NCBI GenBank assembly: GCA_963971285.1
Contig: OZ020259.1
Coordinates: 6,324,001 to 6,388,000, forward strand
Origin: Astropecten irregularis
Lineage: Eukaryota; Echinodermata; Asteroidea; Paxillosida; Astropectinidae
Reading direction: 5' to 3'
DNA length: 64,000 nt
The notes under the pieces are model-generated. The model worked only from the letters and a program-made list of their open reading frames with translations. It made no database searches and was not told the origin of the DNA. Position 1 is the stretch's first letter, and every line of letters begins with the position of its first letter. Positions 4,655 through 53,633 of this stretch are shown in pieces. The translations under genes were made by a program, and so were the position numbers.

Positions 4655-5016
4655 AAAGGTAGTATCATACTTTGGTAAGAAAGCAAAACAGACATTTTCA
4701 CAGATTGACGTATAACTTTCAGGGTATGAAGATGGTGCTGGTAGAAACATACCGTTAAAATGTTTCCGCCTGAAATGGTGTATTTATCCAGAAATTAGTA
4801 AAACAACGACCGAAAATCTTTTTGATCTTTTAAAGGATCAAAAATAAAAGAGAAGACTTAAGAAATACTGTGGCCGTTTTTCATGATTTTCTCAAAAAGT
4901 GGGCACCGTATGGGACTTAAATTTTCACAGATGACTGTGACTGTATCTTCCTCAAGTGATCTTTTTGCCCATGAATCTGTACTTCTTTGACAAAAACCAA
5001 AGTATGATACTACAAA
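4655..5016 (+). mobile_element. AAAGGT-superfamily MITE, m1+2A type
   Basis: This starts AAAGGTAGTATCATACTTTGG and ends CCAAAGTATGATACT, giving inverted ends. The m1 half (GATGGTGCTGGTAGAAAC) meets the 2A half (AAGACTTAAGAAATACTG, GTGGGCACCGTATGGG) at the central palindrome TTGATCTTTTAAAGGATCAA. There is no open frame of note. Confidence 0.85.
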
Positions 5017-5027
5017 AGTCAGGCAAG

Positions 5028-5192
5028 CAACTTGGACTTCACAAAAAAAAACGAGGAAATTTCAATCTTTACCATATTTTGTACTGTTTGTAGGCCTTAA
5101 GTGTTTCTCATGTTTCAAAATTCAATGGCACAAGAGTGAAGTTAAAAAAAAGAGAGGAAATCAGCTGATCCGAGGAAAAGTTGCATGCCTGA
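5028..5192. repeat. Dispersed repeat AB, copy 1
   Basis: The sequence from ACTTGGACTTCAC to AAAAGTTGCATGC recurs at 56295-56432, with the shared block GAGGAAATCAGCTGATCCG. No terminal inverted repeat was found, so its class is unknown. Confidence 0.65.
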
Positions 5193-5475
5193 TACATGTA
5201 TGTAGGCCTATGTCTGACCATTAATTTCCAAGAGTGAAAAGAGCTTCCGAAATGGTTTAAAGAGTGCCGGCAAATTACGTTAAGAGCTGTCGAGTTTGAC
5301 CTTTCCGTACTTCAATAACTCTTGCAAGGAGAAACGGCCACACACCACTGACGAATCAAAATTAAAGTCGCATTGGTTTTTTTTCTTCTTTTCAAGTGGA
5401 TTATATGTATAAAATGTAATAACTGTGGCTCTTCTCAACAGCTGGTTAAAAGATTGACATTTTCCACCGAAGCTG
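5193..5475. other. Short stretch without recognisable feature
   Basis: No repeat or exon signal was identified here. Confidence 0.3.
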
Positions 5476-5519
5476 TTTAAGGATGGGGGTTGCATGATAT
5501 GAAAATCAGACCGCAGTTT
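5476..5519 (+). repeat. 44-bp direct repeat, left copy
   Basis: TTTAAGGATGGGGGTTGCAT and the rest of this segment recur at 5867-5910 with about three differences. The two copies bracket the chimeric element at 5516-5865, and the right copy runs into the AAAGGT element at 5910. Confidence 0.85.
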
Positions 5520-5865
5520 AAGGGAGCATATAGGATTTGCAAGGCCTCAAAAAAATTTATTGAGTTTGAGACAGAAAATAGACTAAACAGTTCGTAAACA
5601 GTGCAAACAGTCACCATGGGAAATCTTGGTTCATCAGATGCTGGGTTTTTCAAGGAAATCAAGATTTAGTGTCTTTTCCAAAGATCATTCGTCCAAACGA
5701 TTTTTGGAACAAACATATTAAAAGTAAACCATTCTTCATGTTTTATAAGAAAAATCGAGTCAGGTTTTCACTATTTTCTCGTGACTCAGATGTTCGATTG
5801 AGCTCAAATTTTCACAGGTTTATTATTTCATGTACATGTTTGATCAGACAAAGTATGAGTACATA
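5516..5865 (+). mobile_element. Chimeric AAAGGG/AAAGGT MITE (J1+2B)
   Basis: The left part (AAGGGAGCATATAGGATTTGC ... ACCATGGGAAATCTTGG) matches the left half of the J element at 33213. After the centre GATCATTCGTCCAAACGATT, the right part switches to module 2B (TTCTCGTGACTCAGATG, GAGCTCAAATTTTCACAGG). The natural right end is truncated. It lies between two copies of a 44-bp direct repeat. Confidence 0.75.
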
Positions 5866-5909
5866 CTTTAAGGATGGGGGTTGCATCATATGAAAATCAG
5901 ACCGCAGTT

Positions 5910-6275
5910 AAAGGTAATATCATACTTTGGTTTTTGTCAAAGAAATACAGATTCATGGGCAAAAAAAATATCAAGGAAGATACAGTAACAGTCATCTGTG
6001 AAAATTTCCAGTCCCACATGGTGCCCACTTTTTGAAAAAATGGTGAAAAACTGCCACGGTAATTCTTAAGTCTTTTCTATTTTATTTTTGATCTTTTAAA
6101 AGATCAAAAAGATTTTCGGACGTTGTTTTACAAATTTCTGGATAAATACACCATTTCAGGTGGAAAAATGTTAGCTGTATGTTTCTACCACCACCATCTT
6201 CATACCCTGTAAGTTAAATACGGAAATCTGTGAACATTTCTGTTTTGGTTTCTTACCAAGTATGATACTACCTTT
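5910..6275 (-). mobile_element. AAAGGT-superfamily MITE, m1+2A type (reversed)
   Basis: This reads AAAGGTAATATCATACTTTGG to AAGTATGATACTACCTTT. It is the reverse arrangement of 4655-5016, with centre TTTGATCTTTTAAAAGATCA. It is flanked by TTAA/TA-type sequence on both sides. Confidence 0.88.
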
Positions 6276-6279
6276 AAAC

Positions 6280-6954
6280 CTAAGTTACCATGGAATTGCC
6301 ATCTCCATAATGCAATGCTTAAACCAGCATGGGGTGTCTGAGTCAGCCTTAGGTAGAAATTGAGAAAAAAAAAAAATGAAATTCAGATGAAGTGCAGAAT
6401 TTTTTTATTCTGCTTGTCAGAACTTGAGGCATGAAAGAACAGCAGGAGGCAGATCGAAGACTCACAAGACCAAAATAGCCGGAGCAAAAGAAGGGGAAAA
6501 TTAAAAACAACAACACCAAGAGGCCTTTTGGGGAGAAGGGGGTGGGGTCCCGCAGTGCTTAGTGCAGAAGCTGTTAGGGTGTCAAGTTGAAGTTGTTACC
6601 TTGGCTTGCTTGCTTTGCTCATTATGCGGAAAGTGTGATTTAATCTCCCCCTTTCGACATCGCCCGTCGCGCGAAGAAGGATTATTTTCATACACTGTGG
6701 CATTTTTTTCCTCACTTTTTTTCTCAATTCTTTTCTTTCCTTTAACAAAATGGTAATTTTGTTTCTTTTCTTTGCTTGCGCTGCAAGACCAGAACTTCAC
6801 CACTTCACTGGAGGTGTCGCTTGATACTTTGTGCTCTAGCCTTCCCATTTTGAAACATGCACAGTGAGCTTGTCTGAAATCAGAAAATGTTTTGTTAACG
6901 GCAAGGCGTCAATGTCAAGCATGGGTAGCATATCGAAACAGATATCTTCACAGG
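6280..6954. other. Stretch without recognised gene; T/C-rich tract
   Basis: At 6700-6780 a pyrimidine-rich tract lies on the plus strand. A long open frame on the minus strand here is Lys/Glu-rich because of that tract, and I do not call it a gene. No repeat family was recognised. Confidence 0.35.
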
Positions 6955-6986
6955 TTTACCTTTAACATACATGGTATTACCGTATG

Positions 6987-7305
6987 TTAAGTGTATGTTT
7001 CGACTATCACTGTCTTGTTAAACGAGACGGTGATAGTCGAAACATACACTTAAAATGTTTCTGCCTGAAAAGCTGTATTTATCCAAAAAAGGGTGAAACC
7101 AATGACCAAAAAGCAATTTTAATCTTTGGAAGATAAAAAATAACGGTGAAAAGACTTAAGAAATACTGTGGCCGTTTTTCACTATTTCTCAAAAAGTGGG
7201 CACCGTATGGGACTGGGAAATTCACAGATGACTGTTACTGTATCCTTCTTGATATTTTTGCATATGAAGCTGCATTTCTTTGATAAAAACCAAAGTATGA
7301 CCTTT
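6987..7305 (+). mobile_element. AAAGGT-superfamily MITE with inverted m1 duplication
   Basis: The right part (7054-7305) is a 2A half ending AAGTATGACCTTT. At 6987-7015 and 7025-7053, 29-nt arms pair with one mismatch around a 9-nt loop (TGTTAAACG). The right arm is the m1 piece GATAGTCGAAACATACACTT and the left arm is its inverted copy. Confidence 0.75.
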
Positions 7306-7518
7306 AACGGCTGGATTTGTACTTGCAGAGCTCTTTCCTGGTTTCGTTACCTAAAGCGATGGTACGATCATAAAATCTCAAATGTCTGAATATGAGTGAT
7401 GAATGAAGTCATCAGCAGATCAACCTCACGTGCTGCCTACATTTCCTGAGAAACGTGTCAAACACACTCACACTTTGGGCTTACATGTAATTTCTGCTTC
7501 CTTCGCATACGTGTCATT

Positions 7519-7883
7519 AAAGGTAATATCATACTTTGGTTTTTATCAAAGAAATAAAGATTCATTGGCAAAAATATCAAGACAGACAGCATAACAGTCA
7601 TCTGTGAAAAATTCAGTCCCATACAATGTCCACTTTTTGAGAAAATTAACGGTGAAAAACAGCCACGGTATTTCTTAAGTCTTTTCTCTTTTATTTTTGA
7701 TCTTTTAAAAGATCAAAAAGACTTTCGGTGGTTGTTTGACTAATTTCTGGATAAATACACCATTTCAGGGAGAAAAATGTTAACGGTATGTTTCTACCAC
7801 CACCATCTTTATACCCTGTAAGTTATACGTAAATCTGTGAACATTTCAGTTTTGGTTTCTTACAAAAGTATGATAGCACCTTT
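7519..7883 (-). mobile_element. AAAGGT-superfamily MITE, m1+2A type (reversed)
   Basis: Starts AAAGGTAATATCATACTTTGG and ends AAGTATGATAGCACCTTT, with centre TTTGATCTTTTAAAAGATCA. Immediate flanks are TA on both sides (ATTA|AAGG, CCTT|TAGG). Confidence 0.87.
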
Positions 7884-7889
7884 AGGCAA

Positions 7890-8866
7890 TGAGCCAAACG
7901 TTCCTCCCTTTTTTCTCCTTGTATCAGTTTCGGCTAACAGTTTGTGGAAATTTGTAACCAGATAATTAAATCCGGGTCGGTTAATCTATAACCGGATAAA
8001 AACCCAGCACTAGATAAAATACACATGCCTTCTAACTACTGGACATGTACATGTACTGTATGGTCACTGTGATACATCTTTACAATAGCGTGTGTGCTGT
8101 ATGAGCCAGATGACACACCAGGCAGAGTCAAGTTCACATTAGGTCATTACGCCCTCGTTCAATGTCCTCTCTTCAACCTTTCGAAGTGTCCACTGTCCAT
8201 CCTATCCCCCAATTGATTGGCATGCACTGGTCTGGAGGCCTTCATCCATCCAAGATGAGATGACCAATGACCAATGACCATGCTGTATATAGGAAGATGA
8301 CCAATTACCGAGCAATCTATGACCTCTCCTGAGGTTCTCTCTCATAGCTGACAAGTCATCAATTACGAGCGATAACACACCTTTGCCAAGTCCCCCAGAA
8401 CCCAGACCCACAGCAATTTATTCTCGGTGTTGACACATGGACAGCCGGCCTGCTACTATTAAGAGCCAATTTCCTGAAATCAAGTCTTGAAAGATTAGCC
8501 TATTAAAAGAACACTGTTTAAACATGCCCTTGATTTTTTGGTAGGTAAACAGCCCCAGCAACGAGTAAACATATTTATATACTGGAATATGTAGAAGCAA
8601 AACAAGATTTAATTTGATTTTAGATGCACGGTCTGTGGTTAATCTGCGAAAAATGTTTCTAGGCCATCTTTCCTGGGAAGTAATGAACCATATGGATTTA
8701 TAATTTGCTAGTTCACAAAAGGAAACAAATTACATGATGACAAATTTATTGTATTGTGGTTGAGATATATTGAAATTATACCAGCTTAATTTGTGAGCCC
8801 TCTGAGTTATACATCTTGCCAAAAACAAAGGGATAGTCGATAGTGTTGTCACATAGTAAAGAAAAT
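7890..8866. other. Stretch without recognisable gene
   Basis: No repeat was recognised. At 8269-8285 there is a short tandem of GACCAAT. Positions 8190-8410 are repeat-poor, open over about 70 codons on the minus strand, and lack convincing splice sites. Confidence 0.35.
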
Positions 8867-8867
8867 T

Positions 8868-9209
8868 AAGGTAGCACTTTTGGTTTTTGTCAAAGAAATG
8901 TAGATTCATTGGCAAAAATATCAAGAAAGATACAGCAACAGACATCTGTGAAATTCCCAGTCCCATATGGTGCCGACTTTTTGAGAAAACAGTGAAAAAT
9001 GCCCATGGAATCTTGTCACCATTATTTTTGATCATTTAAAGATCCAAAATATTTTCGGTCATTGCTTTGACTAATATCTTGATAAACTCAGCATTTCAGG
9101 CAGAAAATGTTAACGGTATGTTTCTATCAGCATTGGTCATCTTTATACATTGTGTACATGTACCCTGTAAGTTATAGGTAAATCTGTGAAGATTTCTGTT
9201 TTGGTACCA
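8868..9209 (-). mobile_element. AAAGGT-superfamily MITE, degraded
   Basis: Carries TTTGGTTTTTGTCAAAGAAA, ATTCATTGGCAAAAATATC and, at the other end, TTTCTGTTTTGGTACC. The central palindrome is reduced to TTTGATCATTTAAAGATC. Confidence 0.8.
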
Positions 9210-9856
9210 CTAGGGGAAGTACATTTAAGCTAAATTGTATTTAACAATTCCATGTACAGTACACTGTACACATCAGTAGTTGTTACTAGTACTACGACAA
9301 ATGAACTTATTCCCCTGGTTAAATGCTACCTTTATTTTCTTGATTACTTTGATGAACTGATACGGCTATCCACAATTCATTGTTACATAGTGACAGAGAC
9401 TGGAGCACTGTTGCAATACTGCTTAAAAACAGAAACTATTTCGGAGCGCTTGTACAATATGGGCTGAAATGTAATCACTTATTGATTTGTCTCGTCCTCT
9501 ATCTTGGGTGCTCCCGAACTGAACACGGAGGAGAGCAAAGTTTGATGACTGGCAATCGTGAATGGAATGGTCCCGATATGAACCCCGGGGATATATCCTT
9601 TCATTACATGGGAGTGTGGTAAACAGTTCACCACCCCCCTCCCTCCTCCCCTCAGTCTCCGCCTTTCATTCCTTGTAATGTGACCCCTTGGATCAAGTAG
9701 GGCTGGGGGGAGGAGGGGGGAGGGGGAGGTTGTCCTGAAACCCTGTGCTGTGATGGTTGTTATTAAAAGGTGTCTTTGAACACGGAGGCAGTCCTGCACC
9801 TGATCAAGAGAGCTTAATTATTCGTGTATGAGAGGCTTCGATTTACTGTGTATCAC
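9210..9856. other. Stretch without gene; paired C-rich and G-rich tracts
   Basis: A C-rich tract (about 9629-9655) and a G-rich tract (about 9703-9731: GGGGGGAGGAGGGGGGAGGG) are complementary. They could form a hairpin, and the G-rich strand could form a quadruplex. Nothing coding was recognised. Confidence 0.45.
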
Positions 9857-11797
9857 TAGGTATCACAATGAATTTCTGAAAGTATTTAAATCTGATTTCT
9901 TTTGTATTTAGTCTTGAAGAGCATCTGAAAAGAAATATTTTGATATATCATATGTTAAATTTGGATGAATATTTTAGGAATTATGGTAATTTAACGGTCA
10001 CCGAAATGGGCCAAAAAATGGCCTAATTAGCATAAATGAATAATTAGCCATATTTATGATGTCATATCTTTGAAACCGAGGTGGTAATCACATTAATATT
10101 ACATAAATTAATAGTATCCATTACATAGTCATTGCCTATTTTTTTTCAGGTTCTTACAAATGAAGGTTTTTTTTTTACAATTTTTTTAATTTTATGAAAA
10201 TCCTATTTTTGACGCATGAAAAAATGGCCTTCCTGTTGGGCCGGGAGTTGCGAGCGTCTGTTTTTTATGGATTTTCAACCCCAGCTATTTAAAAAAGTAC
10301 ACATCCCAGGGACTTGAATTATGGCACAAGTGTAGTAGGTATGAAACATAATATATTCTGAAATTTGGGGATATTTTGCCATTTCATTTACAATTAAATG
10401 AGATTTTACAAATGGCTCTAAACAAATAAATTATAAAGGCTGCATGATGCATGATATGCATATCGCATGCATATCAAATATGCATACTTTCCATGCATTT
10501 TCAGACGTGGCTAGATTGCAATCCCAGTATCAGTAGCAGGTTCAGTTTTGATACACTGGTAGAAAGTATTTAATGTGAATCCTCTCTGTAAAATTGGAGC
10601 TTTATAATACATTCAATAAGTTGTAAACAGCTTTTAAAAATGACTCAAAACAATTAAATATGATGTGTATATTGCGCGATGCGATATGCGATCGCATACT
10701 GTATGCATGCATATGCATGCGATCGCACATGAATGGTTTTCTGTACGCGTAGGCCGTAGCGATGTACCTTCGATGTGTTTTCCCTGGATCTTTTCATCCC
10801 TACCCCGAGTCAAAGTCCTGTGATTTCACCTCCAAAACGATCCTTAACTTCCATCCTCGGACCGATTGAGAATCGGAAATTCCGATCATTACAAGATTTT
10901 GTCGCATTTTGTGTAAAAACCCCCAACAAAATCACCCGGAAATGGGCACCGATACGATCGTTCGTGTTGTTGTCACGTTGTTGCATGCATGCATGCACTA
11001 AATGCACGTGCACTGAATGGCGCCGGATACCAGTGCCATAGCTGATGCGTTGGCGCTCACACTGATCGTCGTCGCAACGACTGTTATCTGAACAACCACG
11101 CAAGCGTCCCCACAATCGGGTGTAAAGTACCGCGTGCTGAAATTTAGCTATTCAGTACACAGTCGTCGGCACGCACGTGCGCACACACTGGTGCACGTCT
11201 TAATGCATTTAAATGTGACCAGGCGGGTAATCTCTCCCTGTTTGGGGGCTTTGCGCATGTGCGCTATCTTGTGGTTGGATTTGGCAATGGTCTTATCGAA
11301 TTCGCTAGAAAATTCCCTTTCTTTTGATACGAAATTGATGTCAAAATTACGTTCTTTTTTAGGAGAAAAATGAGGATGAAATCTTCAATTTTATTTTTCA
11401 CAACTATTATATGGCCTACCCCCATCAAGTTTTATATCAAAATGAAGCGGAAAACGTCCTCTTGCTGACCGTGCGATTTTCAAAACAAATGGAGTTATGG
11501 CGACCGAGCGCCGTGCGCGAGAAGTAGCGGTACGGTTCGGTGGTCAAAAACAGAAACGTTCAAACATTGTGAATGGGTGAAAATACAGCGGTGATTGTGG
11601 GAACATAGTATAATATGTAAGTGTCGGATTTTAATCAAACTTATATGAGAAGAAAGTAGACATACAGAGCTTTCAAATGATACATAATTTTCCACGGAAA
11701 GAATTTTTTTTAATATGAAAATCGTCGATCAAAAAGTTGCATTTTGCGTGGTCAAACTGTGTGCGTCACAGTGCACGGCGCTCTACTGTGATACCTA
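9857..11797. mobile_element. Candidate 1.9-kb non-autonomous DNA element
   Basis: TAGGTATCACA at 9857-9867 is matched by its inverse TGTGATACCTA at 11787-11797. Both sides are flanked by GTATCAC (9850-9856, 11798-11804). The same word also occurs inside the terminus, so the apparent 7-bp duplication is not decisive. The interior has ATGCATATCGCATGC-type self-complementary blocks at 10442-10484 and 10673-10731, and no recognisable transposase. Confidence 0.5.
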
Positions 11798-12018
11798 GTA
11801 TCACGCTAATTCTGAGATGCAACTCCTTCCTCTTATGCTCAAATTTGGATAAATACAAGTTATAAACTGCCGCAAACTGCTCATCAGCCAAAATAATGAC
11901 CTGAAATGTATAAAATGCTTGGTGCTAGGAGGGCCTGACGCATTTCGGTCCTAGCAGCAGCCGATTTCACGAAACATTGCGTAACTTACGAATACAAATC
12001 GCGCGTAAGTTTTGTGAA

Positions 12019-13089
12019 CCAGGGCTGGATTTCACAAAGAACTACTTAAGATTAATCTTAAGATGAGTTGTTCAGTATCACCATAGTGATTTGTATTGTG
12101 ACTAAGGCTGAGTCATCTCGGGATTTTTTTGTTCCGGAACCCGACCAAGTTTTTTCGGTCGGGATCCGGTGTTCCAATAAATTAATTCACGAAAAAAATG
12201 ACGTACTTTGGTGACCCCCAAAATAAAGAAAACCATAAACAATTCCGACATCGAACACGTGCAAAAAACACGGTTGGAGTAGGCCTATTACGCTTGTAAT
12301 TTATTTGCGAGATCCCTGTAAAATATTCCTTCCGAAATTCCGAAGTATCAAAAACCGCGTTTTCCTGAGCAGCTTAATCTTACTTGAATTTCAATCAGTA
12401 ATTTTTGTCCTATTGAGTATTGGCCGAGTAGAAACATCGTGAAATCCTTCCGAAATCAACGGTCGCACTGTGAGTATTTCTTCCATGGTAAGACGTAAAC
12501 AATCATCTCGCACGCCATGCCTTTGCATTTCCCATGCATGATACTGGTACTCCGCGTAAAGTGCACCAGCGCAGCGAAAGTCTCAACCACGTGCGTCGGC
12601 AGGAAGCTTTCCGTACATGTACACACGATGTACATCAACATGTGTACAGTACACAACGTGCGTACGATGTGTGTATATGTGGCATGCACGGTGAAGTAGC
12701 GCTCGGACGGACCGTGGACCACGATCGGGGGTCGGCAGCGGTGCATTAAAATGCGGTGGTGGTGGTGGTAGGCCTACACGTATGATCCGATTGACAGGAC
12801 TTTTGACATCGCTAGTTTTTCGCTACAGAAACTTTAACTTTACGATTGGTAAGATTGAATAAAAGAAACGTGATTTTTATTCAGATTTGAAGAAGAAAGT
12901 TAAGAAAAAGTATTTCTTATGTGTTTTATTGTTTCATCGGAACACCGGAACGAAAAATCGGAAACGGAATCCGATCGCATCCGACAAACGATCCGACTCA
13001 TCCTTAATTGTGACATCACATGTTGCTTAGCAATTAAGATGAATTCACACTTAAGATCAATCTTTGTGCTTCGTGAAATCGACCCCTGG
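12019..13089. mobile_element. D-family MITE (layer 3), split
   Basis: Starts CAGGGCTGGATTTCACAAAG and ends GTGAAATCGACCCCTG. Inner arms are TTAAGATTAATCTTAAGATG and AATTAAGATGAATTCACACT. The uninterrupted copy at 15389-15541 reads ATTGTGACATCAC across the site where the hAT element entered. Confidence 0.82.
12103..13006. mobile_element. hAT-type non-autonomous element (layer 4)
   Basis: A 904-bp insert starts TAAGGCTGAGTC and ends GACTCATCCTTA (11 of 12 positions inverted). It is flanked by 8-bp duplications ATTGTGAC at 12095-12102 and 13007-13014, and the empty site is visible at 15389-15541. The interior shares blocks in reverse orientation with the 1065-bp element at 26902-27966 (for example GAAATTCAAGTAAGAT), so both are one family. 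No transposase frame was seen. Confidence 0.9.
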
Positions 13090-14205: not shown

Positions 14206-14209
14206 GACC

Positions 14210-17462: not shown

Positions 17463-17820
17463 AAAGGTAATTTCATACTTTGCTTTTTGTCAAAAAAATG
17501 CAGATTCATGGGCAAAAATATCAAGGAAGATACAGTAACAGTCATCTGTGAAATTGTCAGTCCCATACTGTGCCCACTTTTTGAGAAAACAGTGAAAAAC
17601 GGCCACGGTTTACTTTTCTTTCTACAGTAGTCAGTATTTTTATCGTCCTAAGATATGTTTTTGGTCATTGGTTTTACACTTTTCTGGATAATACAGCATT
17701 TCAGGCGGACAAATGTTTAATATAACGGTATGTTTCTACCGTCACCATCTTTATACCCTGTCAGTTGGAGATCTGTGGAGATTTCTGTTTCGGTATGCTA
17801 CCCAAGTATGATAGTACCTC
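17463..17820 (-). mobile_element. AAAGGT-superfamily MITE, m1+2A type (reversed)
   Basis: Starts AAAGGTAATTTCATACTTTG and ends CAAGTATGATAGTACCTC, flanked by TA. The central palindrome is decayed, with TTTTTATCGTCCTAAGATAT in its place. Confidence 0.83.
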
Positions 17821-17824
17821 TAAA

Positions 17825-18893: not shown

Positions 18894-19243
18894 AAAGGTA
18901 CATACATGTACAGTATCATACTTAATAGAACAGAAGTCTGTTCATAATTTGATATGTCATGGAATAAAAACATATATCTGTGAAATTTCTATCTCAATTG
19001 ATCATCGAAAACAGTAGAAAACAGCGAAAAACTGTTGCAATTGTTACGGTAAGGTAATTGCAAATGTTAGGTATTTTGATTTACGGTACTCATTTCTAAA
19101 TAAATACAGCACTTCGGGCAGAAAAAAATGAGCAGAATCTATCTACCATCACCATCTTTATACTCTGTAATTTTTAGTATTAATTAAATCGTGAATTCAC
19201 CTGTTTCGGTATGCTACATATGTACCAAACTAAAGTATGATAG
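18894..19243 (-). mobile_element. Old diverged AAAGGT-superfamily MITE
   Basis: Keeps the frame of the family: AAAGGTACATAC at the start, ATATCTGTGAAATTTC, AAATACAGCACTTCGGGCAG, CTACCATCACCATCTTTATA and AAAGTATGATAG at the end. It is much more diverged than the other copies. Confidence 0.7.
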
Positions 19244-22945: not shown

Positions 22946-22947
22946 CT

Positions 22948-23318
22948 AAAGGGACGGTACAGAATTGGTAAGACAAAATAAACTTCATGATCTCAGATTC
23001 ACATATAACTTACACAGTATAATGGTGATGATAGGAGAAAACATCCCATAAAATGTTTTTGTCTGAAATGCCATATTTGTTGGGAAATAAATGAAACTAT
23101 TTTCCGATTGGAATAAATCGATTCGAAGCGTTTTATTCATTCGTTGAAATGTGTACAGTTCTCTGTAAACGGGTTTTCACTATTTTCTCATGACCCAGAT
23201 GGCTGATTGACCTAAAACTTCTACAGGTTTGTCAGTTAAGGTATATGATGGATTACATAATGTGCTTTCACTGTCAGCAACGGTTTTGTCGCAAAAACCA
23301 GTTCTGTACCGTCCCTTT
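22948..23318 (+). mobile_element. AAAGGG MITE with 17-bp perfect TIRs
   Basis: AAAGGGACGGTACAGAA (22948-22964) is matched exactly by its inverse at 23302-23318. The interior follows the m1+2B plan in diverged form (TTACACAGTATAATGGTGAT, TTTTCACTATTTTCTCATGA). No coding frame is present. Confidence 0.9.
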
Positions 23319-25333: not shown

Positions 25334-25497
25334 ACAAATAATGAATGTTTATGAGTGGAATGGTAAAAATAATTTCATGAGGTGACAGATGGACTGTTCC
25401 ATTTCACGAGGCGAAGCCGAGTGGAATGGAACAGTCCATCTGTCACCGAATGAAATTATTTTTTCCATTCTACGAATGTGAAACATTCATTATTTGT
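25334..25497. repeat. Long near-perfect palindrome
   Basis: Arms 25381-25407 and 25421-25447 (GGTGACAGATGGACTGTTCC and onward) pair with one mismatch in 27 around a short GAGGCGAAGCCGA centre. Weaker pairing continues out to ACAAATAATGAATG/CATTCATTATTTGT. It looks like a foldback MITE directly abutting the next element. Confidence 0.85.
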
Positions 25498-25869: not shown

Positions 25870-26433
25870 TGTTATTATATTCTCCACATGACATGGGATC
25901 TGGTTTATGGCAGGCCGCCATTTACACTACATCCTGGTTAATGTACAGGGAGGTTTCTAATACAACAAGCATATTGGGTTTCCTCATGGTGTACAATGTA
26001 CAAGCATTGGACTATAGGTATAGGATATGACATCATCAACTCCTACACCCGGTTCCTTTAGTTTGACACAATCTACAGAGATTAAACCATTTCCTGGCCC
26101 CCAATAGGAAGTGGGCCCACAGACAGCAGTATAAAGCCTACATGTACACATGTACACTCATGACATCTGCAAACTGTGTTCTGTCCGAAGACCGGATATT
26201 GAACAATGGAACTTTGTTCGGCACCAAACACCTGAATCCTTCACTGACTCACAGCAGTTTGCAAAGAAAGTGACAGTTAATACCAAAGTCTCACTTAATA
26301 AGACTTTAGTGCATGACTTGCATTACAGGTACTTTTACGGATCTTCGAGGGCCCATTATTAAGCCCCATCTTTATTAAAATTGGGCATGTACAACATTGG
26401 TAACAAACCAAAACAGAAATGTTTACAGTACAA
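25870..26433. other. Stretch without recognisable gene
   Basis: No repeat family or exon was recognised. Confidence 0.3.
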
Positions 26434-29953: not shown

Positions 29954-30362
29954 AAAGGTACAGTACAGGATTGGTAACATACCAAACAGACATGTTCACA
30001 GATCTACGTATAGGCCTACATTTCAGGGTATGGAGATGGTGCTGGTAGAAACATACATGTACCATTAAAATATTTCTGGCTGAAATACTGTAGGCCTAGG
30101 CCCCTATTCATAAAAGAAATAAGTAAAACAAAGACCAAAAACAGTTATGATCTTTGGGTAACATCAAAACAATTTGTTTCTGTTTGATAAGAAAAATTGA
30201 GTCCGTTACTCGGGTGTTCGCTATTTTCTCATGACTCAGATGTCAGACTGAGCTCAAATTTTTACAGGTTTATAATTTCATGTATAGGCCTAAATGCTGG
30301 ATCAGACAAAGTGTGAGTGCTGTTCTGTGACCTTTACCAATCATGTACTGTATTATACCTTT
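29954..30362 (+). mobile_element. AAAGGT-superfamily MITE, m1+2B type
   Basis: Starts AAAGGTACAGTACAGGATTG and ends AATCATGTACTGTATTATAC followed by CTTT. The m1 half has TATGGAGATGGTGCTGGTAG; the 2B half has TTTTCTCATGACTCAGATG and GACAAAGTGTGAGTGCTG. Confidence 0.87.
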
Positions 30363-32393: not shown

Positions 32394-32763
32394 AAAGGTA
32401 TAATACATGATTGGTAATGGTCACAGAACAGCACTCACACTTTGTCTGATCAAACATGTGCACAATTTGAGCTCAATCGGACATCTGGGTCACTAGAAAA
32501 TAGCGAAAACCTGACTCAATTCGTCTCATCAAGCATAAAGAATGGTTTTGATCTTATCCCGAGATCAAAATTGTTTTCAATCTTTCAGAGAAAAGACTTA
32601 AGAAATACTGTGGCCGTTTATCAATGTTTTCTCAAAAAGTGGGCACCGTATGGGACTGAAATTATCACAGATGACTATTACTGTATCTTCCTTTACATGT
32701 ATATTTTTGCTCATGAATCTGTATTTCTTTGACAAAAACCAAAGTATGATAAAATTACCTTTA
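32394..32763. mobile_element. Chimeric AAAGGT MITE made of two right halves (2B+2A)
   Basis: The left half is inverted module 2B (GGTCACAGAACAGCACTCAC, GAGCTCAATCGGACATCTGG). The right half is module 2A (AAGACTTAAGAAATACTGTG, ACCAAAGTATGATA). They meet at the palindrome TTTTGATCTTATCCCGAGAT plus CAAAA. Intact ends AAAGGTATAATACATGATTG and AAATTACCTTT suggest it moved as a unit. Confidence 0.88.
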
Positions 32764-33212: not shown

Positions 33213-33594
33213 AAAGGGAGTGTACAGGATTTGCAAGGCCTCAAAAAAATATTTTATTGAGTTTGAGTCAGAAAATGGACTCAACAGTTCGTAAACAGTC
33301 ACCATGGGAAATCTTGGTTCATCAGATGATGGGTTCTTCAAGGAAATAAAGATTAAGTGTCTTTAAAAAAGATCGTTCTTCAGAACGATTTATTAGCATT
33401 TTGAAAGCGTGGTGTAACTGTGAAGGATTCGGAGGGGAGGAACATTATTTCGGTCGCATTTCTGCTATCCAGAAGAACAAAGCATAAAAAGGTACATGAA
33501 ACAACGTCTGTAAGGAAGTTTAAGACCTTCACTTCTGTTTAAGTACCAAATTCAGCCAAAACGCACATCTTCGCAAATCTGATATGCTCCCTTT
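33213..33594. mobile_element. J-family AAAGGG MITE
   Basis: Starts AAAGGGAGTGTACAGGATTT and ends AAATCTGATATGCTCCCTTT, so the ends are inverted with a few mismatches. The centre AAGATCGTTCTTCAGAACGA is a palindrome. Its left half is shared with 5516-5714. Confidence 0.85.
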
Positions 33595-43650: not shown

Positions 43651-43658
43651 TTCCTTAC

Positions 43659-43989
43659 AGGTAATATCATACTAAGTTGGTTTTTGTCAAAGAAGTACAG
43701 ATTCATGGGCAAAAATATCAAGGAAGATACAGTCACAGTCATCTGTGAAAATTTCAATTCCATACGGTGCCCACTTTTTGAGAAAATCATGAAAAACGGC
43801 CACAGTATTGCTTAAGTCTTTTCTCTTTTATTGGTCGTTGTTTCACTCATTTCTGAATAAATACACCATTTCAGGCGGAAACATTTTAAAGGTAGGTTTC
43901 TACTAGCATCATCTTCATACCCTAAAAGTTATACGTAAATCTGTGAACATTTCTGTTCTGGTCTCTTACCAAAGTATGATACAACCTTT
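43659..43989 (-). mobile_element. AAAGGT-superfamily MITE (reversed), centre deleted
   Basis: AGGTAATATCATACTAAGTT to AAAGTATGATACAACCTTT. The central GATC palindrome seen in the other copies is missing: TTTTCTCTTTTATT is followed directly by GGTCGTTGTTTCACT. Confidence 0.85.
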
Positions 43990-43994
43990 AACAA

Positions 43995-45437: not shown

Positions 45438-45564
45438 GAACGTGATCAGTGATCCAGCGCTCAAACACTGCTCTGGATCGCGTTTTAAAATATCCTGCCT
45501 GCGATGTGGATTTTTACGATCAAATATGGTGACCACAACCTGCCAAGAAACAAACAGGCCCTAG
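45438..45564 (+). CDS. Candidate terminal exon, Cys-containing, sushi-like pattern
   Basis: ATTCTCTTTATTTCAG precedes a frame open for 42 codons to TAG at 45562-45564. The segment GSRFKISCLRCGFLRSNM, followed by VTTTCQE, loosely follows the second half of a sushi/CCP repeat (GS..V.FSC..G..L.G....TC), but no complete domain is visible. It is on the opposite strand to the better exons. It may be the end of a small gene or a false call. Confidence 0.25.
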
Positions 45565-46049
45565 GTTCCTTGAAGAAAGAACCTTGGGGGGGGGGGGGAT
45601 AATAGGATTACGGAGAATCCATTGGCATGTCTATGATACTGTACTGTACTGATAGGATTTCACCTTGCACAATACCCAAGGTTTCTTCCTAGTATTGGCA
45701 TAGCTAACATGTAGGTCAGTCAAACAAGAGTAACTGTGGTACACCTTTGTTTCCATTGTCTGGGTACAGTGTATACCCCATAGGGATATCCTGCCATAGG
45801 ATGGGGCCATGGTCTACTGTGCATGTAGCCACAGACCTCATCAAGCCTGACTGCAGGTATTGTTCATAAGCCACACAATGCACCTGTTCTTAGGGCTCTA
45901 GATCAATGCAATAGTCAACCCTTGCTATTGTCACAATCAGTGTGTGGTATCCAGCATACCAGCAAGTTCAGCAACTAGATTATGCCTACTTGTGTAATTG
46001 TGTAGTACTGGTACTGGTACCTCCAATAGATTCATAAAGCCCACATGAA
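45565..46049. other. Stretch without recognisable gene
   Basis: A G-tract of 13 lies at 45586-45598. Nothing else was recognised. Confidence 0.3.
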
Positions 46050-46203
46050 TTGGTAAAGGTCACAGAACAGCACTCGCACTTTGTCTGATCAAATATGTAC
46101 AGTGTATATGAAATAAAAAACCTGTGAAAATTTGTGCTCAATCGGACATCTGAGTCACAAATAAATAGTGAAAACCTGACTCAAATTTTCTTATGAAACA
46201 TAA
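46050..46203 (-). repeat. Half of an AAAGGT MITE (module 2B)
   Basis: GGTCACAGAACAGCACTCGC, TTGTCTGATCAAATATG, GCTCAATCGGACATCTGAG and TCTTATGAAACATAAG show a reversed 2B half. The element ends before the central palindrome and joins a C-family fragment. Confidence 0.75.
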
Positions 46204-46206
46204 GAA

Positions 46207-46270
46207 GGGTGATGTTCGGTACAGTTGAATGCTCGGTACAGTGATGTTCGTTAAAGCAGCTTAATACTGT
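46207..46270. repeat. pogo-like MITE (C family) fragment
   Basis: GATGTTCGGTACAG, ATGCTCGGTACAGTGATG and GTTCGTTAAAGCAGC are C-family words, joined directly to the half-element on the left. Confidence 0.5.
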
Positions 46271-46393
46271 ACAGTGTACATGTACATAAAAATAAAAACA
46301 CTCTCAAAGAATTGTACCATACTAGTCATGTCAATGCAATAAAAATGTGCATGTACTGTACATGTAACAACAGAATTTATTCCTCAAACAATT

Positions 46394-46566
46394 TAGCGCA
46401 CCGCACTAATGACGTCACACGAGTACAAAATCCCCGGATGTCAGACAAACTGTTCATGCATGCATAATATGCATGCACATTACACACACCCACCACACGT
46501 TTGCATGGTTGCAATGTTTGTCTGAGATCCGGTGTGCTATTTTTAGTGCAAGTGCGGAGTGCTATA
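46394..46566. mobile_element. Q-family MITE, copy 2
   Basis: TAGCGCACCGCACTAATGAC and AGTGCGGAGTGCTAT are inverted ends. Inside, TGTCAGACAAACTG and CAATGTTTGTCTGAG match 20335-20492. Confidence 0.8.
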
Positions 46567-46578
46567 GAAGCCTAATGC

Positions 46579-46813
46579 CCAATAGGGCTCCACTCTCGAG
46601 CTATTTATAGAATAAATGTACGCCCTTTATATCTACAGCTACATGTACATGTACATGTTGAGCATGTACATGTACATGTATACCCAGATGTTCAGACAAA
46701 TTTCACAACGTTTACAATTTTTACATGTACATGTACCGGTAAGTTAATTGGGCAACGTGCGACTTGTTTCTCCAGACATCTGAAAGTGACGTCACGAGCG
46801 CGGAGCCCTATTG
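46579..46813. mobile_element. O-family MITE, uninterrupted copy
   Basis: CAATAGGGCTCCACTCTCGA at the left and AGCGCGGAGCCCTATTG at the right are inverted. The inverse of GTTAATTGGGCAACGTGCGA gives the empty site for the P insertion at 21804-21943. The interior contains (ACATGT)n. Confidence 0.83.
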
Positions 46814-46814
46814 C

Positions 46815-47984
46815 AGAGACTAGTGCCGTAGTACAAGAAGTTAATATTAAATGCAGCCCGGTTGCAATAATGGGATGTCATTTTAATTACATTAAGAAGC
46901 CACGAGCCATGAGGGTGCGAGTCCTTGTTCCTTAATAAACTGAAACACGCTGCACCCCTTGGCCCTCAGCAACAAATAAATGCCTGATCGATGTTAAGAC
47001 AGGGAAGAGATCTAGGCCTACATCCCCTAGATGCGAGTCCTTCCTTTAGCGCAACAATCACGACTGAGCAGATGTTGACTATACAGCGTTGGAGTGTGAA
47101 GGGATTGAAGATATATATTTTTTTCATTCTCCCCTCCTTCTTAACCAACGACAGCACAGCGGGGGAAATCTTTTTCAGAAACTCCGGTCTGCAGAAGACC
47201 GTGAGCTGAACTCTGATTAAGACTGAGTCAGAGTACCGGTGCATCAACGGTTCATATCCTCCCATTGCCTGGTGCCCACTATACCTTCCTAAAAAACTAT
47301 TGCACTGTACATGTATATCTCGGTAACCATGGCAGTCACTGGTACCCACGCCTCCTGGGTATTTTCTACTTCTGATACAGGGAAAAACGTCAGCAATCTT
47401 ACACGTACCCCCCTGGTTTATTCTGGACCGAGTCTGACGTACATGGACGTAGAGAATAATGCCTCCGAGGTTATATCGGATTTTGTACCGATGAACAGAC
47501 GGAGGGGAAAAATGAAAAGAGATAAAGAAAAGAGGCCAAAAGAAAAAAGCCACACACACGTGCTCGTCGCTGATTAAATTAAAGAGTTGGAGAGGGGGAA
47601 TTGAAAGGCTTACAGTCTTGTACACCCTCCAGCAAAACCTCTGTCAGCCAATTTGGTATTTTTTTCATTTTTATGGTATCATGATGAAAAAAAAAAAACA
47701 GAAGATGAATTTAATTTAAGATTAAAGAGGAGATGGTTTGGTTGTGCTGTAAATATAATCAAGCCGTTTCTTTCATGTAGATTCTGATCTGAAGACAATG
47801 AGCCTATTGTGTTTCAATGCGGTCCTTTGTTGTTAATGTGAATAAAAATGTTATTGTTTTACTCATCGCAAAATAAAACAAACTTAAGAGTAACCAAATT
47901 TGTTCCCAGTTCAAATAATTTTTCTCGTGCACATTATGTAACATATATGTAGTTTTAAAAATGTAATACAGTGTGTACTTAAGA
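46815..47984. other. Repeat-poor stretch, long overlapping open frames
   Basis: Positions 46966-47625 are open for 219 codons on the minus strand, and 47311-47577 are open for 88 codons on the plus strand. Neither peptide looks like a known family and neither has a clear splice context. The lack of repeats over 1.1 kb makes a conserved non-coding element plausible. Confidence 0.25.
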
Positions 47985-48127
47985 AATAAACTGCTGTAAA
48001 CTGCTCATCTGCCAAAATAATGACCTGAAATTTATCAAATGCTTGTAATTTGCAGGGCCTGACGCGTTTCGATCCTACATGTGTAGCACTCACTTGTACT
48101 AAGTTGTAGCAGGATCTTTATCGAAGA
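47985..48127 (+). repeat. G element with a short internal insertion
   Basis: AATAAACTGCTGTAAACTGC to TAGCAGGATCTTTATCGAAG. About 35 nt (48079-48113) interrupt the CCTAGCAGG site, the same site used in the 11856 nest. Confidence 0.7.
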
Positions 48128-48129
48128 CT

Positions 48130-50696
48130 AAATTCATTCAAAAAAATATTGGGATGTATTTCTCTCATGTATCCTTCACTGTTAGTTCAGGAGGAATCAA
48201 GGTTTTAAAATTGATTTATGTTTTATTCTTGAAAAAGGCCCTGTCATATCTGTCAACATATTTTAGACATTTTACAAATTAGTAGCAGACATCCAATGCA
48301 GTATTATATGTAGTGTGGATAGTGTACACTGTACTATGCCTGTACATGAATGTTCTTCTATGGCCCATGATTGCAGATTCATGTTGATCAATACAGCACA
48401 TTTTCCAGCACGCAACGGAGAGAGATAGACTTCATAACCACTAGTCATTATGTGCGTGTGTAATGGACCATTGTGAGAATGTCTGCCGCAGGCTTGCCGG
48501 CAAAATGCAGGCACGCACGCAACCCAGCAAACGACAAGCACGAGCGAGGAAGCCTCGCGCCAAACGTACGATCCCCCTCATCCATACATCAAGTTAGCTT
48601 GTCTATCAGGGCCAGTTCATCCGGGTAATTACGGCGCGGAATCTGCGACCGGCCGAAGACATATGCTCAGGACAAGTCATCTGTTAAGAGCGTCCATGGG
48701 AGAGGATGTCAGTCAACTACTGTGGAGGAATATTATTACCTTCACTGGATACCATCTCATTATTAGACCTCTTCCATGCCCTGCCCAACCCTACTACCTT
48801 ACAGTACCCGGGTACTCTATTAGCCTGCCCCGACTGTCCCGTGTTTCGGATTACAGCACGGCAAATTCACAGTAATTCAGAGAGACACCGATGTCACTAT
48901 TGGACCTGTCAAGATGACATAAATGAACAGGCAAAAATGTTTGGTCTGTTTTTGTTTCATTGTAGCACTTGTCCCTTTCTGTTTGGATTATTGGGAGACA
49001 ACTTAAAATATAACACTGGCAATTGGATTACTTTATTGTCTAAACATCTTGTCATTGCTGACAAAACTCAGGGATGGCAGGTTATTGGTTCATGTAATGA
49101 GCAGATGCTAAAAGAATTCTTGGCATCAAAAATGAATTCCACGCTTAATACATGTATGTACATGTACAAGGTTCGTTTTCATGTACAATGTACATGTAGG
49201 CTTATTAGTGAGGAAAGTTCTACAATGCAACATGTACCGTACATGGGCATACATGTACTTCGCTTAGCCATAGAGCTATGGCGTAACTAATGAATTCCCG
49301 CATATGTGTATACTTGGCTGACATATAGACATAACATTTTGGGAAAATTTTTGCAATCTGGTAAGCCAATTGAATGTCAATCATAAGCGCAAAACTCAGC
49401 AGTATACGACACAGAATAAATGTGGGCTAACTGCAGTTGAAATTGACATGACATGTACATAAATATACAGTACATGTTCTTGAAATTCAAGTTGACACAC
49501 GAATACATCTTTTGTACATTATGCTGTACATGAACTACAGTGTAGGCTGCCTATTTCAGGGAAAACATAGGCTACATGTACATACATGTACTGCGGACAA
49601 GAAAAGGTAACAAATGTTGGCAGTTAAGTCAACCAAGAAAAGAAACATACAGCTGCCCCCACAGAATGCTAATTCTGCCTTTTACATACTGTACGTACAT
49701 ATAATGTACCACAAAATACCTCGCTCAGATAAAAAAAAAAAAAAACTTGCTCGTAAAAATTCCATACCCTGTGTATACAACAATGCAATTTAGGCTGTAG
49801 TATACACAACAGTTTGTTTTTCTGCAAAGAAACATTTGTGCAAATGTGGGCGTGCGGAAAAACCTGTTGTTTTCGTCTCGCAACCTGACATTTTGATGTT
49901 TCGTGAAATTGAACCCTATTAAGACGACAGCCCGTCCGAGCTTCTGAATAGGGCAGTGGCCAAGGCTTCATGTTTCAACCATTGAAGCCATACAAGTACA
50001 TGTAGGCCTACATGTTAATTTATAAACAGGACTTGTGAAAAAAAAATTCAGCTTTGCAATTTGCCTAGTGCGCGTCCACACATGTATAAAAATAGATTGC
50101 CACAAGAAACCTCTAATAGATGAAATGGTGAGAGCCTCGATACTGAAAAGTCCTTGCACAATATGACTTGTTCCACAAAAGATCACGTTCTTGCCAGCAC
50201 ACTCAACACGTGATGCTGCTCTACCTACATGTATGACCATGATGTAGGCCTACTTGTGTGAATATTTCAAGCATTCTTATTTGCCTGACTGACTGCCGTC
50301 TCGTAAAATGCACCAGATTATGTATGCGTCCACTCAGCCTACATACGTACAGTATGTCAGCATCAATTATTAAAGTAGTTTGCAGCCTCAATATTTCTCT
50401 GTTCTTGGCGAGAAATTTGACGGGAAAATAATGTAAGAAAAAAATAAAAATATCACCCTCAAGAATGCGCAAATGGATTCAGCTCATGAATAAGTCAGAA
50501 AGGAAATAAATGAAAATGTATTTGCCCGTGACATTATTTCTCGCTGAGGTGGGAATAGGACAAATTGCATCCAGTTCCCAAGCGACCTACATTTGCGCAT
50601 GAATCACCACAAAAACGCAATCTTATTAAAGAACGAAAACAGAACGTCTAAAACTGGTTTGGACTGACAAACAAGGCGTGATTTAATATTTATTTG
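48130..50696. other. 2.5-kb stretch without recognised gene
   Basis: A 194-codon plus-strand frame (48706-49290) resembles nothing known and includes ACATGT-rich repeat sequence, so it is not called. Positions 50450-50690 are complex and repeat-free and could be regulatory. ACATGTAC tracts lie at 49150-49200 and 49570-49590. Confidence 0.25.
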
Positions 50697-51035
50697 CTTG
50701 GAGTTGGAGTTAGGAGGACGTGGCACATTTTGATCCAAGCAGGATCTTTCTTAAATGCTAAACGGTAATACTACTGAGGATCGAAACGCGTCAGGCCCTC
50801 CTAACTCCAAGCATTTTTATAAATTTCATGTCATTTTTTTTGGCTGACAAGCAGTTAAAGGCTTTGAGAAAGATCCTGCTAGGATCGAAAAGTGTCAGGC
50901 CCTCCTTACTCCAAGCAGCCTTTGAGAAAGATCCTGCTAGGATCGAAACGCGTCAGGTCCTCTTAACTCCAAGCATTTTTTATAAATTTCAGGTCATTTT
51001 TGGGCTGACAAGCAGTTTGCAGCAGTTTATTACTG
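50697..51035. repeat. G elements, inverted pair plus tandem copies
   Basis: One copy runs forward (50697-50760). Copies starting near 50777, 50863 and 50920 then run in reverse, each with GATCGAAA...GTCAGG and ACTCCAAGCA. The last continues to CAAGCAGTTTGCAGCAG. This shows local amplification of the core block. Confidence 0.8.
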
Positions 51036-52028
51036 ATAATATTAAATATTTATTTGCAATATCCTATGCTGGTTCCAAATGGTATGTTGTACAGACCTTG
51101 ACTTGAACTTGAAGTCTACACAAATGAATGTGTGCATGCAAAATTGCAAAATAATGAATTTGGACGAGCAAGTTTGAATACAAAAATGCACTTGCCTTAA
51201 CATGTACAATGTACATGTAAATACAGTATGTACATGTTGTACATGTAAAGCATATTATTTTCTGTCAGGAATATGCTATACAGGCATAGTATGCATGTTA
51301 CATGTGTATGCATGCTGTACGTACACACGGATACATTACTGTTAGGTGCTTAGATCAATGCATCCCTTCACTATTAACAACATGATGCATTCCCTGCAAT
51401 GCCTTCCTTTAAATAGCACACTTCAATTTCCTACCTTAAGCCCGTATGACTTTAACTGACAGAATTCCCCATCCCCCCTCCCCACCCCCAAATAAATCCT
51501 TCTACAAAATTGGAGACACCTCAGTCTCCTTCTAAAGCACACCTGAGAGTCTAGGATAGGGATGGGTCTAAGTTCGGCCTAGATTACTATAACTAGATGT
51601 AATTGCTGCCAACTTAACCCCGCCCCCTTCATCCAAAGATCCCCACTTTCCCTAGAAGCTGAGCCTGCCGACGACAATTTATATAAAAAGAAACCGAGGG
51701 TGCTAATTTGCGGTGTCTGCAGGCCAAGAACTAATGAAATTTTCTTTGACGAGAGGACTAGCGGAGTAGAGGAGGGGGAAGAAGTCCAAAAGGAAATGGA
51801 TTTCTAGAACGAGGGAGTTGAGCTGAGTTGAATACAGATCAGAGGATTTGACGATCAAGGGACAGCGTGTGGGTGAACACTTCTTGGTTGAGGTAAACAG
51901 AAAAGAAAGAAACGAAAACGAAGTATACGTACTGTGCACATTTTACACATGTACTGTACATAATACTTAATATGTACATGTTGCATCCTTTATTTGAAGC
52001 GCGTGTGTACATCCAATGTATAGGATCA
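51036..52028. other. Stretch without recognisable gene
   Basis: ACATGTAC-rich at 51200-51320, then complex sequence. No exon was recognised. Confidence 0.3.
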
Positions 52029-52181
52029 GGGGCTGATTTCATAAAGCTCTGCGACGCGTCGCAACTCGATTTGTGACGCGTCCTACATACTGTGACGCGT
52101 CGCATCTAGATGCGGTGAGTGCATAGAGAAAGGATGCACCTTAACTCTGCGACGCGTCGTAAGTCTTATGAAATCAGACCC
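52029..52181. mobile_element. L-family MITE with CGACGCGTCG core
   Basis: GGGGCTGATTTCATAAAGCT at the left and CTTATGAAATCAGACCC at the right are inverted. Inner arms TGCGACGCGTCGCA and TGCGACGCGTCGTA are themselves palindromes. It abuts the next element directly. Confidence 0.85.
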
Positions 52182-52182
52182 A

Positions 52183-52352
52183 GGTGTCAATTGCACGAGG
52201 CCCTACGATCATCCGTAACTCGAGTTTAATACGAAGGATAACCCATCATATTCTACGTAGGGGCTGCAATGTATCATACAGTCATGACAGAAAGTCCTAC
52301 GAAGCTACGGTTGATAGTAAGTTACGATGAGTTTGGTGAAAACGATCCCAGG
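52183..52352. mobile_element. K-family MITE
   Basis: GCACGAGGCCCTACGATCAT, CCGTAACTCGAG, TACGTAGGGGCTGCAATGTA, CAGAAAGTCCTACGAAGCTA and TAAGTTACGATGAGTTTGGT are in the K order. Its left edge touches the L element. Confidence 0.8.
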
Positions 52353-52530
52353 TTACATAGGCCTACTGGTTAAATGTGAAGCCAGCACCATCAATGTTGC
52401 TGAACATTTTGGATGTCAAATCAGTGACGAGGACGATTCCATGAAAAGTAGGACATAGGAGTGAATTTTTCAAAATAAATTTTGAAGGAAGTGCTTTATA
52501 TCATGTGATAGCGACATCATCTGACGAGAG

Positions 52531-52722
52531 GTCGATTTCACCAAACTCATCGTAACTTACACTGTAGTGTATGTACTATCAAGCGTAGGACTTAAAACGC
52601 ATTGCAGCCCTACATACACTGTACATGTACATGTACATGTAGGACAGGCCCCCTACGATGGGTTGTATCCTTTGTAACTCGAGTAACGAACGATCGCAGG
52701 GCTTCGTGAAATCGACCCCAGG
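52531..52722. mobile_element. K-family MITE, reversed
   Basis: GGTCGATTTCACCAAACTCA at the left and GTGAAATCGACCCC at the right are inverted. It is in the opposite orientation to 52183-52352 and contains an (ACATGT)n insert at 52620-52644. Confidence 0.83.
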
Positions 52723-52724
52723 GT

Positions 52725-53265
52725 CTTAACTCTAAAGAGCGGGAATCTGAATCAATGATTTCTGATATATTGTCAAAACATGTTTGTATGGTAATAACAA
52801 TTTAACAAACATAAAATCAATCCGCAAAATAGGAAGATAAAAGTGCAAGTCACGTCCATAATATTATTATGTAGGCGGACCTCCTTACACACAATCTACA
52901 GTACATTTACGACGTATAGAAATAAATTGCTCCAATCTGCTCGCAAATTAGGTTTCGCGAAAGGGGCGAGGCCAATTTTTTCCTGCAAAGGAGCACATCT
53001 CACGGAGAGAATCCAAATGTCAAAGGGAGAAGGAGGGGGGAATCGGGAGGCAACAGAGTCCGAGGCCGTGTCCTCATCAGGAAGCCAGGCTGGCTGGTCT
53101 AAGGACACATGCAAGACTTTAATTTACTTTGGCTTCTTCAATTACTGCTTAATGGATTCGCCATCAACATGCAATTCTGGCCACTTAATTGCTAGGCACT
53201 CTTCCTTACAGTATATATAAATAAACTTAGAGATTAAGCTCTAATCTAAATACATGTATAGCATA
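52725..53265. other. Repeat-poor stretch
   Basis: A 125-codon plus-strand frame (52843-53220) is open but unrecognised and lacks clear splice sites. It contains ATTACTGCTTAATGGATTCG-type homeobox words. It could be regulatory. Confidence 0.25.
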
Positions 53266-53633
53266 TGTACAGTACAAGATTGATAACATACAGTACCAAC
53301 ATGTAAACAGAAATATTCACAGATTCATCATTCATGTATAACTTTCAGGGTATAAAGATGGTGCTGGTAGAATCATACCATTAAAATATTTCTGCCTGAA
53401 ATGGTGTATTTATCCAGAATTTAGACCGAAAATAGTTTTGATCTCGGGATAAGATCAAAACCATTCTTTATGTTTTATAAGAAAAATTGAGTCGGGTTTT
53501 CGCTATTTTATCGTGAATCCAGATGTTCCGATTGAGCTCAAATTTTCACAGGTTTATTTTTCCACGTACATTCTGGATCAGACAAAGTGTGAGTGCTGTT
53601 CTGTGACCTTTATCAATAATGTATTTTACCTTT
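53266..53633 (+). mobile_element. AAAGGT-superfamily MITE, m1+2B type
   Basis: AGTACAAGATTGATAACATA at the left and AATAATGTATTTTACCTTT at the right. The centre is the palindrome TTTTGATCTCGGGATAAGAT plus CAAAA, the same centre found in the 2B+2A chimera at 32394. Confidence 0.85.

Follow-up and report, generated by a model that had tools for sequence, protein, structure and literature searches.

Mosaic TTAA-associated miniature elements with a central hairpin in a 64 kb stretch of the Astropecten irregularis genome

A 64 kb stretch of Astropecten irregularis DNA (assembly GCA_963971285.1, contig OZ020259.1, positions 6,324,001 to 6,388,000; hereafter the window) contains a set of miniature inverted-repeat transposable element (MITE)-like, TTAA-associated elements that are ~320–410 bp in size and have AGGTA or AGGGA ends. 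These elements are assembled from recurring blocks, termed m1, 2A, 2B, and J1, and a comparison of the blocks reveals that the m1 core was exchanged between the m1+2A and m1+2B lineages, over a tract that extends from the terminal-repeat region to a palindrome at the element centre. The window is eukaryotic in look, with a longest listed stop-to-stop frame of 225 amino acids and a GC content of 37–42% per 4-kb step, and no gene was identified in it. Pfam searches of 10 of its 29 listed open reading frames gave no match up to an E-value of 0.1 and hence no transposase. One conserved 24-base element pattern had no match in prokaryote and virus contig collections.

We identified 16 copies or fragments in the window by a BLAST search with 10 elements reported in a first-pass annotation and by a profile search with m1, 2A, 2B, and J1 alignments. 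All 10 reported elements are present at the positions given for them and share blocks in the reported combinations. The annotation had counted about a dozen; six copies were overlooked, namely 7025 (6911–7304), 8879 (8865–9212), 22965 (22946–23268), 19087 (18936–19225), 33209 (33215–33592), and a lone 2B half (46034–46214). Copies are referred to by such short labels, with extents given in brackets. With the reversed window as a control, the 2A profile had no match, and by chance the other profiles reached E-values no better than 0.003 (m1), 0.021 (2B), and 0.42 (J1). A weak 46-nt match to outer m1 at 26383–26428 (E 0.00036) is possibly a fragment of another copy and was not counted.

Seven copies have the m1+2A combination (A copies): 4655 (4656–5013, plus strand), 5910 (5912–6274, minus), 7025 (plus), 7519 (7521–7881, minus), 8879 (minus), which has lost the end on its m1 side, the more diverged 17463 (17464–17823, minus), and 43659 (43658–43991, minus). 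Five of the seven lie within 4.6 kb (4656–9212) at separate sites, as might result from local hopping or from a stretch rich in targets. The m1+2B combination is found in three young copies (B copies), 3101 (3104–3449, plus), 29954 (29956–30361, plus), and 53266 (53269–53632, plus), and in one old relative, 22965 (plus), with an AGGGA end. A second old m1 element, 19087 (minus), has a third, diverged right half that is closer to 2B than to 2A. The rest of the set comprises one 2B+2A element, 32394 (32396–32761, plus), one J1+2B element, 5516 (5520–5865, plus), one J1+J2 element, 33209 (plus), and the lone 2B half (plus). The exchange had been suggested to generate new element families; m1+2A and m1+2B are the only combinations with several copies in the window, and 2B+2A and J1+2B are represented by one copy each.

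A central palindrome was found in the copies that retain it, as previously noted. The A palindrome, TTTTTGATCTTTTAAAAGATCAAAAA, is exact in 5910 (6085–6110) and 7519 (7694–7719) and one base off in 4655 (4819–4844). It is decayed in 7025 (7117–7140) and 8879 (9025–9049), unrecognisable in 17463, and deleted in 43659, which lacks A positions 162–192. The B palindrome, TTTTGATCTCGGGATAAGATCAAAA, is present in 53266 (53436–53460) and, reversed, in 32394 (32546–32570), is decayed in 29954 (30145–30169), and is mostly deleted in 3101. Common arms, GATCAAAA, flank different middles in the A and B palindromes, and the J and 22965 types have other sequence at the same place (5678–5707 in 5516, 33365–33394 in 33209, and an imperfect palindrome at 23111–23138 in 22965). 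Twelve elements were scanned for hairpins; 8879, 7025, 19087, and the lone 2B half were not among them. Compared with the other hairpins along the same element, the best one within 30 bp of the centre ranked first in seven elements, where a first rank is expected by chance in roughly one in five, and second in one; in the other four it ranked 8, 98, 125, and 140 and is decayed or lost. Centre hairpins occur in the A, B, J, and 22965 types, which makes this common feature of the set an obvious candidate for a switch point. That a hairpin or cruciform caused the exchange, as first proposed, we infer from position only.

Incongruent phylogenies of the two element halves, anticipated by the first-pass annotation, were found within the window. 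Half trees and pair counts included six of the seven A copies, the three young B copies, and the two old copies, and the resulting pairs are not independent; 7025 was left out because its m1 is incomplete. Consensus distances for the m1 core are 0.10 between A and B and 0.34 between either of these and 22965, and the right-half distances are 0.52 for A–B, 0.34 for B–22965, and 0.57 for A–22965 (for the third right half, that of 19087, the distances are 0.47 to B and 0.56 to A). Bootstrapped quartets group A with B for the m1 core (1991 of 2000) and B with 22965, leaving A with 19087, for the right half (1976 of 2000). When single copies were realigned per half, m1 joined m1+2A with m1+2B in 18/18 pairs and the right half split them in 18/18. 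Pairwise alignment likewise placed A–B closer than B–22965 in 18/18 pairs for m1 and 0/18 for the right half. In approximately unbiased (AU) tests, the data of either half reject the tree of the other, with p values of 0.0002 (m1 data) and 3e-74 (right-half data). The m1 cores of m1+2A and young m1+2B copies are 76–93% identical, with 17463 (70–75%) and the incomplete 7025 (66–79%) as exceptions.

A different account of these distances dispenses with exchange: within one m1+2 lineage, constraint such as that imposed by transposase-binding sites would have kept m1 similar, and the right half and both ends would have changed rapidly. The m1+2 layout is indeed old, as evidenced by 22965 and 19087. 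However, B is equally far from 22965 in m1 and in the right half (0.34 in both; per-copy means of 0.39 and 0.32, and 0.31 and 0.24 by pairwise alignment), and m1 is therefore not merely slow-evolving. The tree conflict, which extends to every one of the 18 pairs, also argues against constraint. We thus rejected m1 as a slow-evolving part and consider a history without exchange very improbable.

The right halves proved to be related to one another. The elements had been described as built from four separate interchangeable halves, a view that is not borne out, since 2A and 2B, read in the same direction and trimmed of the terminal repeat and palindrome, have homologous interiors (local z 8.1, global z 4.4, neither score reached by any of 1000 shuffles). 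The next-best direct-orientation pair is 2A–m1 (15 and 27 of 1000 shuffles), and no other pair approaches 2A–2B. Reverse-orientation local scores also gave low counts for 2A–m1 (2 of 1000) and 2B–m1 (21 of 1000). Because their trimmed interiors still align, 2A and 2B are, on this sequence evidence, two old, diverged forms of one right half, and the alternative that they are unrelated modules was rejected. Homology of J1 to the other interiors was rejected as well (lowest count of 79 of 1000 shuffles for trimmed interiors); the untrimmed m1 and J1 consensuses, which share ends and a palindrome, gave a count of 7 of 500.

We further delimited the tract shared by A and B. The best A–B high-identity block has an identity of 0.90 inside and 0.51 outside, and none of 500 permutations reached its score. 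The block starts at TTGGTA in the terminal region and stops at TTTTGATCT within the palindrome. The A/B exchange is thus also bounded in the terminal-repeat region and represents an internal replacement. Scored by eye, the ends agree with this placement. Where the m1-side end is legible, m1 joined to 2A carries A-type ends (5/5 copies; 7025 and 8879 could not be scored), and m1 beside a 2B half carries B-type ends (4/4, including the old copy 22965). The outer ~20 bp are accordingly not part of m1 and follow the partner right half in 9/9 scorable copies. The old copy 19087 has A-like sequence at both ends despite its non-2A right half. Modules that run from a terminal AAAGGT to the palindrome, as had been suggested, are at odds with these ends and with a block that begins inside the terminal region. 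Since m1 moves without the terminal repeat, m1+2A and m1+2B share an internal cassette rather than a half-element; either this cassette was exchanged between A and B or the ends were altered to match afterwards.

A leave-one-out template parse, which is independent of the previously defined halves, places switches in similar positions. Copies 3101 and 53266 take m1 from A, from positions 43–47 to 173–193 (the A palindrome is at 169–194), and 29954 parses as A from 3 to 156 and then B. Copy 19087 switches at A 156, 32394 enters A at 199, and 5516 enters B at 196 (the B palindrome is at 174–198). As controls, 0 of 160 simulated unrecombined copies parsed as between-family mosaics, one having a short unassigned stretch. 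Shuffled sequence also yields parses, and for this reason we place no trust in the parses obtained for 33209 and 19087.

These boundaries bear on the possibility that m1+2A and m1+2B were born independently, each by internal deletion from its own autonomous element. The two autonomous elements would already have had a left end in common, m1 would have been inherited from them, and the centre would be just a deletion seam. MITEs are often taken to arise by internal deletion (PMC1562414, in the portion available), and the centre of an element is a natural seam. Yet the identity of A and B breaks off at a single point, within a palindrome with common arms, and the ends differ although the cores agree. 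The right-half interiors are moreover homologous, and a common layout therefore probably predates the divergence of the two families. We consider independent births unlikely. That the m1 core was exchanged between the m1+2A and m1+2B lineages follows from closely alike cores combined with old, diverged right halves and differing ends. That exchange between families occurred is, on the evidence as a whole, very probable.

Two further elements combine parts of different families. In 32394, the 2B match (to 53266) spans the whole B palindrome and extends as far as 32578. Five of the seven A copies give a 2A match that starts at 32587–32590; with the other two, 17463 and 8879, it starts later. The join thus falls at ~32578–32590, 8–20 bp beyond the palindrome, and connects two right halves in inverted orientation; each half retains its own end, and the ends are hence unmatched. 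In 5516, the J1 match reaches 5703, inside the J1 palindrome; with four of five partners, the 2B match starts at 5726–5728, where the B palindrome has its outer edge. This join (~5703–5727) lies up to 20 bp beyond the palindrome, and the 2B terminal end is missing. The parent type of the J1 half is provided by 33209, in which J1 is partnered by J2 and the AGGGAG ends match. Both 2B+2A and J1+2B are single-copy hybrids of different families with breaks next to a palindrome. The window holds several co-resident MITE families, each with its own end pair and middle hairpin. Joins had been reported to fall on the central palindrome. The A/B block boundary does lie inside it, and the 32394 and 5516 joins lie beside it, within ~20 bp; the lone 2B half also ends about where the palindrome would start.

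Whether the palindrome guided these breaks is a separate question from whether exchange took place. Ordinary ectopic crossover or conversion, to which the palindrome is irrelevant and in which centre breaks reflect the choice of halves, shares the exchange itself with the explanation that we favour, and the probabilities of the two overlap. Ectopic exchange has been invoked for the Galileo chimeras (PMC3573991, in the portion available), the breaks in the window are few, and the 32394 and 5516 joins are beside the palindrome rather than on it. On the other hand, the A/B tract has a boundary at each end, and the two right halves joined in 32394 are inverted relative to each other; both facts speak against this account. 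An artefact of the choice of halves is countered by the parse, which places switches in 3101, 29954, 53266, 32394, 5516, and (not trusted) 19087 either no more than ~20 bp from the palindrome or in the terminal part of the element. We regard an irrelevant palindrome as possible but doubtful.

The explanation that we consider probable, with some reservation, is that resident copies exchanged sequence by template switching or conversion, for which the central hairpin was a favoured point. Exchange would take the form of conversion-like template switching during repair synthesis between dispersed copies, such as gap repair after excision, and the central hairpin would be where the polymerase tends to quit its template. 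Transposition requires matching ends, and multiplication would therefore have been limited to the products that have them, m1+2A and m1+2B. Inverted duplications and flanking direct repeats are expected of template switching in repair. The m1 part of 7025 contains a 36-nt inverted duplication (6984–7019 and 7021–7056, 92%, 1-nt spacer), as if synthesis had snapped back, and the J1+2B hybrid sits between 48-nt direct repeats (5476–5523 and 5867–5914, plus strand, 96%) that start with TTTAAGG.

Several observations weigh against template switching guided by the hairpin. The copies are few (six of seven A, three young B, and two old) and come from a single 64 kb region, and nodes of the m1 tree are poorly supported, with a highest bootstrap of 74. 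The extent of 2A–2B divergence depends on alignment: mismatch per copy pair is 0.49–0.61 in the multiple alignment and 0.29–0.42 pairwise, so that the pairwise contrast with m1 (A–B 0.08–0.24) is smaller, though in the same direction. The template parse assigns the 29954 end to A and not to B as by eye, while agreeing with the eye for 3101 and 53266. Independent break events number only the A/B boundary in the palindrome, the 32394 and 5516 joins, and perhaps the end of the lone 2B half. A random break would fall within 20 bp of the palindrome about one time in five, and three or four near-centre breaks are for this reason suggestive only; near-centre breaks were also what the first-pass annotation selected on. 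Neither an empty site nor a parent allele attests to the repair event itself. Continued swapping within the m1+2A family is neither shown nor excluded, as half distances among six m1+2A copies are weakly and non-significantly correlated (Mantel r 0.41, 143 of 720 permutations).

A stronger version casts the central hairpin as a hinge for repeated reassortment of left cores and right halves among TTAA MITE families, with matched-end products founding new families. The young m1+2B copies differ from one another at 21–23 of 108–113 positions in m1 and at 11–18 of 130–145 in 2B. Greater differences in m1 than in 2B would fit repeated reassortment, which we nonetheless think rather unlikely. The origin of new MITE families has so far been largely inferred, and small elements with distinguishable parts and a candidate fixed break point would allow exchange events to be counted genome-wide and guidance by the hairpin to be asked about directly. 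Clustering of breaks at the hairpin would make repair at a structured centre a specific way in which transposon families arise; without such clustering, these elements would be another case of chimeric transposons like Galileo.

The window also contains other repeats. Nested inverted arms at 58055–59606 (50 nt at 94%, 46 nt at 87%, and 49 nt at 90%) define a separate foldback-like element of ~1.55 kb. Strong inverted repeats are found at 25355–25473 (58-nt arms, 3-nt spacer, 88%) and 59237–59386 (63-nt arms, 24-nt spacer, 90%). Hairpin-forming repeats at 1704–1839 and 50704–50975 seem related, both containing CTCCTAACTCCAAGCA-like sequence, and a 58-bp unit is tandemly doubled at 50862–50975. 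Arrays of a 16-bp unit (CAACTCGTACACACGC) at 60485–60559 and 61464–61639 lie ~1 kb apart in opposite orientations.

By their ends, the elements resemble non-autonomous, Kolobok-like TTAA MITEs. Exact TTAA adjoins AGG at 10 of 24 ends of 12 elements, including both sides of 5910, 29954, and 32394, and is diverged or lost at the remaining ends. Kolobok and the Xenopus T2-MITEs are characterized by a TTAA target and terminal AG (PMC6004289, in the portion available). Our elements have the TTAA target duplication and the terminal AG (RR) of the Kolobok superfamily, with legible ends of AGGT or AGGG, and, like the T2-MITEs, they form non-autonomous subfamilies of differing age in one genome. In contrast to the terminal AGGRR of T2-MITEs, A and B ends read AGGTA, though J1+J2 and 22965 (AGGGA) would fit; no transposase was found among the reading frames searched, and the available portion of PMC6004289 does not mention swapping of halves for T2-MITEs.

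The chimeric birth of elements is already known, and a central hairpin as a repeated break point, which here rests on three or four breaks, would be new. Palindrome-centred exchange in MITEs was absent among the matches listed, in titles and abstract starts, from the open PMC literature, which is weak evidence. AgaP2-P12MITE of Anopheles gambiae is a composite whose 5′ and 3′ ends derive from different subfamilies and which its authors attribute to a deletion between two neighbouring copies that moved together (PMC1562414, in the portion available). Although its P-element ends and 8-bp target duplication distinguish it from the elements described here, it parallels 32394 in having the ends of two subfamilies. 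A broader parallel is provided by Galileo in Drosophila mojavensis, in which the two ends belong to different subfamilies in 12 of 170 copies and other copies contain a foreign interior between matching ends. Galileo belongs to the P superfamily and has long terminal repeats and 7-bp target duplications, and the available portion of PMC3573991 mentions no central-hairpin break point. Its authors propose recombination and conversion, with the birth of subfamilies as an outcome, and chimeric ends and interiors swapped between matching ends are features that Galileo has in common with the Astropecten irregularis elements.

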